Shown: positions 5,881 to 44,391 of the stretch, in pieces
How the letters are laid out: each line of letters starts with the position of its first letter
How positions within the stretch are numbered: position 1 is the stretch's first letter
DNA from: Thalassovita sp.
GTDB taxonomy: Bacteria; Bacteroidota; Bacteroidia; Cytophagales; Flammeovirgaceae
DNA: 64,000 nt
Assembly (NCBI GenBank): GCA_002729595.1
Contig: PBYL01000267.1
Span: forward strand, 1 to 64,000
Direction: 5' to 3'
Program-made: the position numbers and the translations under genes
Notes under the pieces: model-generated
Databases searched by the model: none
The model's input: only the letters and a program-made list of their open reading frames with translations
What the model was told of the DNA's origin: nothing

Positions 5881-5935
5881 TAAAGAATTTTGAGGTTTTT
5901 TGAGCATATTTTCAAATAATTTCTAACTTTGAAGC

Positions 5936-6127
5936 ATGTGGTCTTGCTATCAAAAAATAGCGAGTGAATAGGGAATCCTGTTAAAATCAGGAGCTGTCCC
6001 CGCAGCTGTAAATTCCAGCCGACTACAATAGTAGAAAGCAAAATTGCCAACATCCCACACCACTGTTGCCAAAGCGCAATGGGAAGGTATAGTTGACAAT
6101 CGGAATGAGCCAGAAGACCTGCCACGT
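5936..6127 (+). promoter_or_regulatory. Cobalamin (B12) riboswitch
   Basis: All core elements are readable in order: AATAGGGAATCC at the start of the core, GAGCTGTCCCCGCAGCTGTAA, CCACTGTTGCC, ATGGGAAGGTAT, and the B12 box GAGCCAGAAGACCTGCC at 6107-6123. An outer P1-like helix can form between ATGTGGT (5936-5942) and GCCACGT (6121-6127). The aptamer lies upstream of the transporter operon at 6257-9644 and downstream of the first binding-protein gene. By family knowledge, adenosylcobalamin binding would repress the downstream operon. No clear expression platform was resolved in 6128-6256. Confidence 0.96.
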
Positions 6128-6256
6128 AGTAGCACAATCGTAGCTTTCGGGTGAAAAGCGAAAGATTTGGAACAACTGTTATAAGAAACAGAATCCTTCT
6201 CTCGACCGACCCTGCTTGTTTGTGCATGTATATGTTTTATTAAAAATTAAAACAGG

Positions 6257-39541: not shown

Positions 39542-40873
39542 TTAAAATAGTGATTCTTGCTTGCCTGTAATATGATACTCACCATTGCGTGCAACTATAC
39601 TAAAGCCTTTGTTTACATGTATCCACTGGATAAAATCAGACTCGTATTCTGGCAACAAAAAGTTCTTAAACCAGAAAGAAAATTCTTTGTGCCCTGTATT
39701 TAGATTGTTTTCTAAAAGCAACTTTTTGCGGAGATAAGGATTATTTTTTACATAACCTCTAAAAGTATCTATATCTCTACCTGTTGCACTAGTCAGTAAC
39801 TTTTCACCTCTACTATCACGCTCCACTTCATACTCTTCTCTCCAACTTTCGATCATGGCAGTTTCTTTTTCTCTTCGCTCAATCTCGGAATTTTTGAAAA
39901 CCTCATTAATCTGCTCTTCTTTCTCCTTCAAAATCTGCATCTCAGTTTTCGTATTTGCATTGCGCTCGATTAAACTCACCAAATAAGCCGATGGATTTTT
40001 CACTCTACCAGCTTTATACCCTTTCCGAGTTTCCTCAATTAACTCCATGAGGTACTCAGGTTCTCTTCCCTCCTCGTTCAAATAGTAATCTGCTTGTTTC
40101 TCGTTCAGTCCAAGTTCTTCGAATGCCAACACCACATCTTTGATTCCCTCCTTGCGCATGGTATTCGACTTGATCTGCTTCGGCAACCTTTTTTTCTTGA
40201 TGATGAAATCTATCTCGGTAATTTTTCTACCTTGCTTTCGCTCAGTAAATTCAAAGCTTACATCGCAGTTTTTGTCCAAGTCTTTTTTAGCCTGCTCAAT
40301 TACCTTTTTCTTAAACATGTTGTAGCTACGGTATTTATCCTGCAACCTCAACATACGTCTAAGGTCTGCTACAGCAATTGTTCTTTTACCTATGCGCTCG
40401 TACTGCTTAATCAACTCATAAATACGCATAGAATACTGGCTACGCAGTGAGAGCACATTGTAATCGTAGAAACTGGTAAACCTCTCTTTAAGGTCTATCA
40501 TGTGGGGTTTAAGCTTGGGCACAAAAATAATCCCGATGGTTCCTTCTTTGTGTTTGTGCATAGACCAAGTGATAAACGGAAACTGTTCTACGTTGCCATT
40601 ATCATGTCTAATTTGCACTACTCTGGTCATCAGTCTTTTTACAATTTCAATCATACGCTCATAAAGTGCATGATTGTCTTTGAGACCCAAATCTTCTTGA
40701 AAATCTTTAATTCGAAGCTGGTAGGTTTTAAAATCTTCGTCACCTTTACGGACTTGCATAGCCATCAAGTAAATGATTTTCATCTCAATGGGTGTGAGAC
40801 GATATTCTGCATTTACCAGATAATTACTTTTTACAATTAACGAACCGCTACCTACTTTTTCCGGATTATCCAT
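39542..40873 (-). CDS. Plasmid replication initiator, Rep_3/RepB family
   Basis: From the ATG at 40873 the protein has 443 residues. An ATG at 40906 would add 11. The N-terminal region shows the Rep_3 winged-helix pattern: LIVKSNYLVNAEYRLTPIEMK, LSLRSQYSMRIYELIKQYE and MFKKKVIEQAKKDLD. Such initiators bind iterons and open the origin, and an iteron array begins 84 bp from this start. The C-terminal half (about 230-440) is charged, less conserved and longer than in minimal Rep_3 proteins. It is transcribed away from the origin, with parAB on the other side. Confidence 0.93.
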   Translation of the reverse strand: MDNPEKVGSGSLIVKSNYLVNAEYRLTPIEMKIIYLMAMQVRKGDEDFKTYQLRIKDFQEDLGLKDNHALYERMIEIVKRLMTRVVQIRHDNGNVEQFPFITWSMHKHKEGTIGIIFVPKLKPHMIDLKERFTSFYDYNVLSLRSQYSMRIYELIKQYERIGKRTIAVADLRRMLRLQDKYRSYNMFKKKVIEQAKKDLDKNCDVSFEFTERKQGRKITEIDFIIKKKRLPKQIKSNTMRKEGIKDVVLAFEELGLNEKQADYYLNEEGREPEYLMELIEETRKGYKAGRVKNPSAYLVSLIERNANTKTEMQILKEKEEQINEVFKNSEIERREKETAMIESWREEYEVERDSRGEKLLTSATGRDIDTFRGYVKNNPYLRKKLLLENNLNTGHKEFSFWFKNFLLPEYESDFIQWIHVNKGFSIVARNGEYHITGKQESLF

Positions 40874-40917
40874 AACTATAGATTTTCTACTAACGCAAAG
40901 TATCATTATGAAAAAAC

Positions 40918-40951
40918 AAAAGCAACCTGATATTGAAACCGAGTTGCGTTT
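40918..40951. promoter_or_regulatory. Candidate Rep operator (inverted iteron half-sites)
   Basis: AAAAGCAAC and GTTGCGTTTT face each other across 16 bp just upstream of the rep start. Both are inverted or direct copies of the iteron core GTTGCTTTT. In Rep_3 plasmids such inverted repeats let Rep repress its own gene, so this is the likely autoregulatory site. Confidence 0.55.
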
Positions 40952-40956
40952 TTATT

Positions 40957-41588
40957 CCTCAAAAAGTTGCATTAAACTAAATTCACTCCTCAAAAAGTTG
41001 CTTTACTTTTGGTGTTTAGCTTTAAATTGATGGAAAAGCAACCTTATTATTCCTGCATTTATGCTTCTGAAAGCTAAATTTTCGCCTTATCCTCAAAAAG
41101 TTGCTTTTAAAAATTACTAAACCGCAAAAGGTTGCTTTTAAGGCAAAATAATATGCTCATAGGCGCTATCAGAAGCCATATTTTTGTAATCTCAACTAAT
41201 TGGTTGCTTTTTTATGTCTTAAGTTTCAATAAAGTTGCTTTAATTAGAAACAAAGGCATTTTTTAGCCCTCAAAAAGTTGCTTTAAAGGCTAAATTCCTA
41301 CGGAAAAGTTGCTTTTAGCTTAAAGAACCCACATTTAGCAAACCGCAAAAGGTTGCTTTTAATGGTATTTAGATCAAAAAGTTGCCTATAAATCTGTATT
41401 TGAGTCTAAAGTTTTGGATAATTGGTCTTGTTTTGTGCTTTTTGAGTAGGAAAATGAAGCAACTCCTCAAAAGGTTGCTTGACTTCCGCAATTGATTGCT
41501 TTAATTCCTCATTGAGTTGCTTCTATTCCTCAAAAGGTGGTTTTGTTTCCTCATTAAGTTGCTTAAACCTCCTCAATTAATTGCTTTA
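40957..41588 (+). repeat. Iteron array, replication origin
   Basis: About sixteen direct copies of CCTCAAAAAGTTGCTTTT or close variants are present. Taking the G of GTTGC as anchor (one copy reads GTGG), they lie at 40966/40997, 41100/41131, 41203/41234, 41277/41308 and 41352/41381 (pairs 29-31 bp apart). Then come 41474, 41495, 41516, 41537, 41558 and 41580 (six copies 21-22 bp apart). Inverted GCAAC copies occur at 41038 and 41459. Two copies (41118-41140, 41339-41361) share an extended block. The array lies between rep and parA, as in iteron plasmids. Confidence 0.92.
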
Positions 41589-41590
41589 AG

Positions 41591-41625
41591 GCTTGTAATT
41601 AATTTATTATCAATAAGTTACAAGC
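41591..41625. repeat. Palindrome upstream of parA (candidate parS, operator or unwinding region)
   Basis: GCTTGTAA and TTACAAGC are perfect 8-bp arms, and an inner TTATT-ATC-AATAA palindrome lies between them. It directly follows the last iteron. The next 195 bp up to parA are extremely AT-rich without a gene and would suit a DNA-unwinding element and the parA promoter. Confidence 0.5.
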
Positions 41626-41819
41626 TCCTAAAACATTAAAAACAATTAAAATAAATAAAAACACTAAAAAGCTTAATGCTTCAAGAGGTGTGTAAATTTG
41701 ATTCTGTATTTTTTGTTTTTTAAAGTAGAAATATCAGCCTAAATCTTTTGTTTTTTTGAATTATTGAAACATCTTTGTTTTAAATCAAAACTTAATAATA
41801 CAACTTTGTTTTATTACAA

Positions 41820-42764
41820 ATGAACTTGTTAAACAAACACGTAATTACATTTTTTAAAAGAAACCCGGCAATATCTGCAACCGCAGTTGCTAAAGAAGCG
41901 AATGTTCCGCCGGCTTCATTGAGAAATGCCATTGCAGGAGGCAGGCCACTTCCCGAAAAGCATTTGGTTTCACTTTTTCATGTGTTAAAAAAATATGGTT
42001 TTAATGAAGAAGATTACAATCAGGCAAATGTAATCTGTGTCGTAAATCACAAAGGAGGGGTTGGAAAAACCACTACCACCATGAATTTGGGCAAAGGCTT
42101 GGCTTTAGAAGGAAAAAAGGTGCTCTTGATAGACATCGACCCGCAGTCTAATTTAACTCAACACTGTGGGATTACCACTGCAGAAACCACCATAGCAGAT
42201 ACTTTACTAGACGATGAACCTCTACCTGTTCAAGAAGTTTCGGAAAACCTTTGGTTGGTACCTTCTGAATTGTCTCTGGCAACTGCCGAATCTAAATTGG
42301 TTACAGATGTAAATGGCTGGTTTAAACTCAGAAATTCTTTGCGTGGAGTAAAGTCTCAATTCGACTATATCTTGATCGACTGTCCACCGTCTTTGGGCAT
42401 ACTTACCAACAATGCTTTGCTTACTTGTAACAACGTAATTATTGTAATTGAAACAGAATATTTGGCCATAAAAGGTCTTGGTGTAATTCTTAAACATGTA
42501 GATGGCATTAAGAATAATGGCCTCAACGATAAGCTGAATATTATGGGCTTATTGTTTACCAAAGTAAACACCACTGTGGTGAGTAAAACTATTATTAACG
42601 AGTTGCGAGATGTGTACAAAAAACGTGTATTTGAGGCATCAATCAGGAGAAATATTGCTTTGGTAGAAGCAGCGGGAGCAGGTACAGATATTTTTTCTTA
42701 CGATAGCAATTGTAACGGCTCACAAGATTATTTGGAACTAGCAAAAGAAATTATTGAAAGATGA
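41820..42764 (+). CDS. parA: ParA partition ATPase with N-terminal HTH
   Basis: The protein has 314 residues. Residues 1-65 look like a small DNA-binding domain (SATAVAKEANVPPASLRNAI), as in type Ia plasmid ParA proteins that repress their own operon. The deviant Walker A motif is NHKGGVGKTTTTMN, followed by DIDPQSNLTQH and the Walker B-like YILIDCPPSLG. It overlaps parB by 4 bp. It provides active partition of the replicon. Confidence 0.95.
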   Translation: MNLLNKHVITFFKRNPAISATAVAKEANVPPASLRNAIAGGRPLPEKHLVSLFHVLKKYGFNEEDYNQANVICVVNHKGGVGKTTTTMNLGKGLALEGKKVLLIDIDPQSNLTQHCGITTAETTIADTLLDDEPLPVQEVSENLWLVPSELSLATAESKLVTDVNGWFKLRNSLRGVKSQFDYILIDCPPSLGILTNNALLTCNNVIIVIETEYLAIKGLGVILKHVDGIKNNGLNDKLNIMGLLFTKVNTTVVSKTIINELRDVYKKRVFEASIRRNIALVEAAGAGTDIFSYDSNCNGSQDYLELAKEIIER

Positions 42765-43615
42765 AAAAGAACAAGAAGGAGAGTGTGCTCGATTTTTTAA
42801 AGAACACTGTTGACTATACTGACGATACAGCAATAAAAGAAAATATAATTATCCATCCTGATTTAGAGCCTTTTATTTTCCCACTCACTCAGGAGGAGTT
42901 TAGTCAATTAGAAACTAATATTTTAGAAGAAGGTTGCCGTGACCCTTTGGTAGTTTGGAACTCACCAGACAATCAAAAAATATTGGTGGATGGCCACAAC
43001 CGTATTAGAATTTGCCGCAAACACGGTTTAGATTTTAAGATCAGCAACAAGCATTTTAACGATATGCAAGCGGTTGAAAACTGGATGATAAACAACCAGC
43101 TTGGCCGTAGAAACTTGAATACTGAGCAAATTGCCATATTGCGAGGGAGACAGTATAACCAGTTAAAAAAAGGGCATGGCGGTCAGGAGTTTTTTAATAC
43201 CGACCCGAGTGGACAATCTGACCACTCGGATGCAAAGACTTCTGAAAAGTTGGCTAAAGTCCATAAAGTGAGCGAAAAAACCATTAGACGCGATGGTAAC
43301 TTTTCTGCCGGAATGGATAAAATTAGAGCACAAAATGAACAGTTATACAGCGATATTATCTCCAAAAAAGTAAAGGTAAAAAGAGATGATATTGAGAAGC
43401 TTGCAAAAGTTAATGATGGCCAAATAGCGAGTGATATTGAAGCCCTAATCAATAGCTCTTCTACAAAATCAGCTCCTGTAAAAACAGTAGCAAATACTAC
43501 TCAAACAGTAAAGCTGGAATCTGAAAAGAAGAAATTTGTTACACAGGCAGAGAAGCTTAAAAAACTTGGCTTGAGTAAAAAAGAACTAAGGTCTTTACTA
43601 GATCAATTGTTTTAA
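42761..43615 (+). CDS. parB: ParB-like partition protein
   Basis: The protein has 284 residues. A ParB/sulfiredoxin-like domain is visible at about 30-110 (FPLTQEEFSQLETNILEEGC, DPLVVWN, ILVDGHNRIRICRKHG). It is followed by NNQLGRRNLNTEQIAILRGR and a helix-turn-helix (KLAKVHKVSEKTIRRDG). The canonical CTPase GERR motif is replaced by GHNR, as in many phage and plasmid relatives. A GC-rich perfect palindrome sits in the coding sequence of the linker (43205-43229). Confidence 0.9.
   Translation: MKKNKKESVLDFLKNTVDYTDDTAIKENIIIHPDLEPFIFPLTQEEFSQLETNILEEGCRDPLVVWNSPDNQKILVDGHNRIRICRKHGLDFKISNKHFNDMQAVENWMINNQLGRRNLNTEQIAILRGRQYNQLKKGHGGQEFFNTDPSGQSDHSDAKTSEKLAKVHKVSEKTIRRDGNFSAGMDKIRAQNEQLYSDIISKKVKVKRDDIEKLAKVNDGQIASDIEALINSSSTKSAPVKTVANTTQTVKLESEKKKFVTQAEKLKKLGLSKKELRSLLDQLF
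43205..43229. repeat. GC-rich palindrome inside parB (candidate parS)
   Basis: CCGAGTGG and CCACTCGG are perfect 8-bp arms around a 9-nt spacer. They stand out in otherwise AT-rich DNA. The encoded stretch (DPSGQSDHSDA) lies in a variable linker of ParB. Confidence 0.4.
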
Positions 43616-43632
43616 CAGAAACCCTCTTTGTT

Positions 43633-44391
43633 ATGAGTGAAATCAAACTGTTTGAATCGAAAGAAATCCGTTCTACTTTGCATGAAGGAGAATGGTTTTT
43701 TGCTGTGGCAGATGTTGTTGGTGTGCTTACCGAAAGTGTAAACTCGGGTGATTATTGGAGAACTTTAAAACACAGAGAACACCAACTCGTGACGAATTGT
43801 CACAAGTTGAAAATGCCTGCTTCAAACGGTAGAATGTATAAAATTGATTGTGCTAACAAAGAGGGTTTACTAAGAATTATTCAGTCGGTGCCATCGCCAA
43901 AAGCTGAGCCATTTAAAAAATGGTTGACAAATGTAGGTAGTAAAGTATTAGATGAAAAAGCTAACAAAAGACTTGCTGCCCACCGAAAACTGAAAGAAAC
44001 CCAAAACAGATTTTTAGATAATGTAAAAAACAGAGGGGTTGATGAAGAGGGTTTTGTAAGAGTGATAAAAGCAGGAGACGATGCTCTTTTTAATGAGTCT
44101 GATATGCATGAGAAATATGAGTTGGATAAAGAAGAAAATATAGACGATTACATGCATGAATATTTACTCCGCGGAAAAGACTTTGCCACAGCCATGACGC
44201 ATTTCAATGTGCATCAGGCAGATTTGCAGGGAGAAGAAGATATTACTGATGAGCACAAAGCTTCCAACAAACAAATTAGAGAAACCATCCAAAAAAGCTC
44301 CAAGATTAATCCCGAAGATATTAAAGCCCAAAAGAACATTAACAAGTTAAAAGGAGGGGGTAATCAAGACAAAAAGAAGCTAGAAGAATAG
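43633..44391 (+). CDS. Bro-N domain protein linked to parAB
   Basis: The protein has 252 residues. The N-terminal 110 residues match the BRO-N DNA-binding domain found in phage antirepressors and DinD-like proteins (EWFFAVADVVGVLTESVNSGDYW, GLLRIIQSVPSPKAEPFKKW). The C-terminal half is charged and helical and ends in a Lys/Glu-rich tail. It starts 17 bp after parB, so it is probably the third gene of the partition operon. A role in copy number, stress response or partition is possible but unproven. Confidence 0.85.
   Translation: MSEIKLFESKEIRSTLHEGEWFFAVADVVGVLTESVNSGDYWRTLKHREHQLVTNCHKLKMPASNGRMYKIDCANKEGLLRIIQSVPSPKAEPFKKWLTNVGSKVLDEKANKRLAAHRKLKETQNRFLDNVKNRGVDEEGFVRVIKAGDDALFNESDMHEKYELDKEENIDDYMHEYLLRGKDFATAMTHFNVHQADLQGEEDITDEHKASNKQIRETIQKSSKINPEDIKAQKNINKLKGGGNQDKKKLEE

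Follow-up and report, generated by a model that had tools for sequence, protein, structure and literature searches.

A stretch of bacterial DNA that carries a plasmid-type replication module next to chromosome-like genes may belong to a plasmid, to a chromid (i.e. a large secondary chromosome to which core functions have passed) or to a chromosome into which a plasmid was once integrated. That question is raised by the window analysed here, which comprises bases 1-64000 of the 66,713-bp contig C267, part of a draft genome (G000) of a member of the Bacteroidota with 487 contigs and 7.99 Mb, 77.7 % complete with 1.3 % contamination, a state of assembly in which replicon counts may be off. The initial annotation had read the rep-iteron-parAB layout as the mark of an iteron plasmid. 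From the analysis that follows, the region very probably serves the replication and partition of a plasmid-like replicon that is of the theta type and under iteron control, and about ten such replicons appear to share the cell. A search for terminal overlap between the ends of C267 found none; the contig is not closed as a circle, and it may be an autonomous molecule.

The probable replication and partition core

The core spans the following features, in order along the window.

39542-40906, minus strand: rep, Rep_3/RepE-type initiator (Pfam Rep3_N 3.1e-34, Rep3_C 3.1e-16)
40956-41387, minus strand: dispersed iterons, eight copies, several forming pairs at ~31 bp, with the pair nearest to rep lying just before it
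41464-41586, minus strand: main iteron array, six direct repeats with a 21-22 bp period, AAGCAACYTTTTGAGGA in the sense of rep
41587-41819: AT-rich segment, 79 % A+T, adjoining the main iteron array
41591-41625: inverted repeat, GCTTGTAA...TTACAAGC, inside the AT-rich segment
41761-41820, plus strand: imperfect 29-bp direct repeat with a period of 31 bp that runs up to the parA start codon
41820-42764, plus strand: parA, Walker ATPase (AAA_31 6.9e-52)
42761-43615, plus strand: parB, divergent ParB with an Srx/ParB N-domain, an HTH domain and C-terminal helices
43633-44391, plus strand: dinD-like gene, third of the par operon, with a Bro-N N-terminal domain and a DinD C-terminal domain

The Rep protein comprises two winged helices (WH1 and WH2) followed by a ~200-aa C-terminal extension that is common to the family, as judged from an alignment of 14 relatives. 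Within the PDB it matched RepE (1e-14), and a profile made from the 14 relatives strengthened that match to 5.6e-29 (1rep) while also matching pi and RepA. When the 1.1 kb upstream of rep was searched for motifs, 14 copies of the 17-bp iteron were found between 40956 and 41586, the motif scoring 249 vs 31-96 in 12 first-order Markov controls; the core word of the iteron has three exact copies genome-wide, all of them at the window origin. Across 19 rep loci from two genomes, the distance from one iteron to the next has one peak at 21-22 bp and a second at ~31 bp, i.e. two and three helical turns, and the 31-bp pairs often lie just before rep, a location that suggests autoregulation. The dispersed copies are, in turn, probable sites of copy control and autoregulation. 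The segment 41587-41819, with the highest A+T among 233-bp segments sampled across the window, is a probable DNA unwinding element. DnaA boxes were considered as a further element of the origin and set aside; the window holds 32 one-mismatch sites vs 19 expected with no convincing concentration at the origin, and one of the three DnaA-box-like sites near the origin is part of an iteron.

At its N-terminus, ParA has an HTH-like region of ~65 aa (the HTH being judged by eye), for which the 29-bp repeat at 41761-41820 may serve as the operator of the par operon. ParB is more divergent. A Pfam search of the protein gave no family above cut-off, the best being ParB_N at 0.0016, and it was recognized instead by its fold; its N-domain has the GHNR and NQLGRRN motifs. 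An AlphaFold2 model (41 sequences, pLDDT 85) gave structural matches to ParB, Noc and KorB at Z of about 9-11, spanning up to residues 20-236. The same ParB family occurs on plasmids of Persicobacter, Aureibacter, Runella, Spirosoma, Emticicia and Flammeovirga, and 61 of 64 records that carry it are non-mobilizable. A search for parS gave no convincing repeated palindrome; the inverted repeats that it yielded, at 41591-41625 and close to parA, were dropped as parS candidates for want of established conservation. Also rejected was the idea that the parA-parB pair of G001:C170 (65 % and 47 % identity) is the true orthologue of the window pair, real ParA orthologue pairs being near 80 %. The Rep_3 gene, the iterons, parA, parB and the Bro-N gene are all where the initial annotation had placed them.

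Comparison with known replicons

In the F plasmid, an iteron array lies beside an AT-rich segment and parAB is separate. The window Rep belongs to the same initiator family as RepE of that plasmid (PDB 1rep); however, it is longer, its iteron is different, and the window adds dispersed, 31-bp paired iterons and a DinD-like third gene. The closest known case is CP139022.1, a 53.6-kb circular plasmid of Flammeovirgaceae bacterium SG7u.111, a relative from the same family, in which rep is divergent from parA-parB-dinD as in the window, ParB (46 %) and ParA (43 %) are of the same families, iterons lie upstream of rep, and there is a skew step at the origin. It differs in having an iteron of another sequence (AAAACGACAGTTTCGGG), a single Rep_3 gene that is nearer to another paralogue of the draft (62 % to the C283 Rep), and cargo made up mainly of polysaccharide genes. 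Members of the Persicobacteraceae have 9-16 replicons per genome with Rep_3 initiators (PMC10645730), and many of their plasmids bear parAB with the same ParB family, although their only rRNA operons are on a plasmid and the DinD-like gene is absent from one par region inspected. Judging from its title, as cited in PMC11225308, a report on Chondrinema litorale 'carrying multiple megaplasmids' (Front Mar Sci 2023) adds another member of the Bacteroidota with many such elements. Given the Persicobacteraceae and the closed Flammeovirgaceae plasmid, the window replicon is of a kind already known; what stands out is the set of private iterons and a DinD-like partner of putative function that recurs.

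Cargo and the chromid question

The genes that flank the core had been taken to suggest a large plasmid or chromid with core-like functions, and it is the second half of that suggestion that weakens upon inspection. The B12 block includes a regulatory element.

5922-6140: cobalamin riboswitch (Rfam RF00174, 2.4e-23), preceding the B12 uptake operon

The operon encodes binding proteins, a FecCD permease and an ATPase, and is accompanied by CobW and by genes for the lower ligand, i.e. CobS, a DBI_PRT phosphoribosyltransferase and a phosphatase; the block is present but serves uptake and late assembly, not the full pathway. The chemotaxis and ilvD genes are likewise present in the flanks. As to a second ilvD, two further copies were found in the draft (three in total), and CheA has two further paralogues at 35-38 %, the window CheA itself being without close counterpart in two relatives. 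No tRNA, rRNA or evident essential gene was found in the 64 kb, and no 16S was found in the draft or the sister draft.

That the replicon is a chromid is unlikely, even though it has a plasmid-type origin, a composition close to that of other contigs of the genome and a rep that has probably long been inherited vertically. Set against the dnaA contig, the GC content is 35.8 % vs 34.4 % and tetranucleotide agreement is similar, in a comparison for which there is little certain chromosome (the dnaA contig being 8 kb). CobS also speaks for a chromid, in that its sole copy in the draft is here, with none in the sister draft, while that of a near-complete relative (G004) is on a large, rRNA-bearing contig (C9); yet CobS is a conditionally useful gene and not an essential one. 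With ilvD and cheA having further copies elsewhere and rRNA, tRNA and evident essential genes lacking from the 64 kb, the cargo does not make the replicon a chromid, and of the features by which chromids are recognized, as summarized in PMC6090056, the plasmid-type origin is the only one clearly seen in this 64 kb.

A probable set of Rep_3 replicons in one genome

The plasmid-like replicon of the window is not alone. In the draft, 11 Rep_3 genes are spread over 10 contigs; the sister genome (G001) has nine, and G004 has eight on seven contigs of 18-381 kb. Since C129 carries two such genes, 11 genes need not equal 11 replicons. Within the order, Rep_3 genes occur in 96 of 291 genomes, and a few of these genomes have 11-13, so that counts as high as this are unusual without being unique. 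Roughly ten replicons sharing one initiator family pose a problem of incompatibility, and the likely answer lies in iterons that are kept within orthologue pairs and have diverged between paralogues. Seven of the Reps pair with sister-species orthologues at 72-81 % identity, somewhat under the 87 % of DnaA, a level in line with shared vertical descent. Each pair has matching iterons, and one or both half-sites differ between paralogues, as in GCAAC..TGAGGA for the window, GCAAC..TGAAAGT for C86, GCTAC..TTGGGA for C140 and ATGAC..TAAGG for C146. Cross-scans gave 8-15 sites within orthologue pairs and mostly none between paralogues, although a few that are related gave partial matches (up to nine); some matches above 10 bits are shared, for example, by the window type and the C140 type. 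Because each Rep would have its own iteron, the co-resident paralogous replicons would avoid incompatibility with one another. Some 12 bipartite iteron types, together with the aligned Reps, also offer natural material for working out DNA recognition by Rep_3 winged helices; a lining up of recognition-helix residues with iteron half-sites was suggestive, with too few independent cases for a claim.

Might the Rep_3 contigs instead be plasmids of other organisms that were drawn into the bin? In that event the ten co-resident replicons would be wrong and the window would still be a plasmid origin. The draft is indeed split into 487 contigs, and C129 and C146 are lower in compositional agreement. 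Such contamination is nonetheless improbable, as the seven orthologue pairs are seen again in the sister bin, which is independent, 8-kb pieces of most of the contigs are as close to C86 as are pieces of C267 itself and closer than pieces from relatives, and G004, which is near-complete, has its own eight Rep_3 genes on seven contigs. Overall, composition across the contigs fits one organism better than it fits relatives, with C129 as the outlier.

Several loci bear on how the members of such a set are put together. Sister contig C280 (L035, G001:C280, 124-3962) joins an orthologue of the window rep (81 %), with the same iterons, to par genes that are orthologues of those of C139 (80.5 %), a combination that reflects either module exchange or an assembly chimera; plasmid replicons are known to exchange modules, as they do in Pseudomonas (PMC5304414). 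On C129 (L014), two Rep_3 genes lie 6.3 kb apart in DNA of lower GC (30.8 %), which may be a cointegrate or a two-replicon plasmid. The 57.7-kb contig G004:C7 has two Rep_3/par regions with equal match scores, 29.7 kb apart (L030 and L031, at 18037 and 47782), indicating a plasmid dimer or an assembly duplication.

Probable origin activity and a working model

Cumulative GC skew, computed over all of C267 (66.7 kb), is lowest at 41882, a position just within parA and beside the iterons. Skew minima next to rep are also seen on C86, C43, C431, C140 and C139; on C129 and the examined piece of C146, the minimum is not beside rep. Third codon positions were analysed separately because gene direction also shapes skew, and for minus-strand genes the skew at these positions goes from -0.094 to +0.086 (on the plus strand) across the origin, a flip that is absent from the plus-strand genes, which offer few sites. 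A minimum that adjoins the iterons makes a live origin most likely, rather than a remnant, and, together with the closed circular relative of the same layout, it bears out the reading of rep-iteron-parAB as an iteron plasmid replicon. An integrated remnant within a chromosome that has its own dnaA origin is very unlikely despite the presence of some Rep_3 genes of the family on multi-megabase contigs (G003:C1) and the chromosome-like look of the cargo, for rep, iterons and par are all intact, the skew minimum of the contig falls at the iterons, dnaA is on a different contig (C328), and the cassette is conserved on a closed circular plasmid.

For the plasmid-like replicon, the following sequence of events is proposed. 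Going by RepE-type biology, Rep would bind the six phased iterons and open the adjoining AT-rich segment, from which bidirectional replication would start, a step that the skew minimum supports. The scattered iterons would most likely limit copy number by titration or handcuffing, along with autorepression of rep, and ParA and the divergent ParB, going by family and fold, would segregate the copies.

The DinD-like partner

The third gene of the par operon had been labelled Bro-N, a label that is correct for its N-terminal domain (2.9e-14) and incomplete for the protein, whose C-terminal half matches NCBIfam PRK11525 (1.7e-24). The latter match covers positions 132-280 of that model and, at 86.7 vs 242 bits, is below the whole-protein equivalog cut-off. 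By sequence, the gene is a homologue of the one for DinD, the RecA modulator of Escherichia coli, which is described, in work cited in PMC4457935, as a modulator of RecA filaments. On other replicons of the genome, the DinD-like C-terminal half is retained, while two kinds of N-terminal half occur. Of the 13 Bro-N genes in the genome, six have one of the 11 Rep_3 genes within about 5 kb, a proximity with a chance of about 1e-8 under uniform placement. Bro-N genes are absent from the near-complete G004, which has eight Rep_3 genes. A literature search for DinD together with parAB returned no relevant paper.

Homology and position lead us to speculate that the protein has a role in replicon maintenance. 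Sharing an operon with parA and parB, to judge from its position, it would probably act on RecA filaments of the host and might thereby limit recombination among replicons or multimers. A partner of this type would tie plasmid maintenance to the control of homologous recombination, a connection that is directly testable. The broadest version of the proposal is doubtful, namely that a DinD-type RecA modulator is the standing third component of the lineage's Rep_3/par cassettes, blocking recombination among the ~ten replicons, and that the Rep/iteron paralogues are a vertically inherited, non-interfering set. Adjoining two further reps are AntA/AntB antirepressor-like genes (L015, 3467-4255; L017, 8234-8935), which occupy the place held by DinD-like genes in other replicons.
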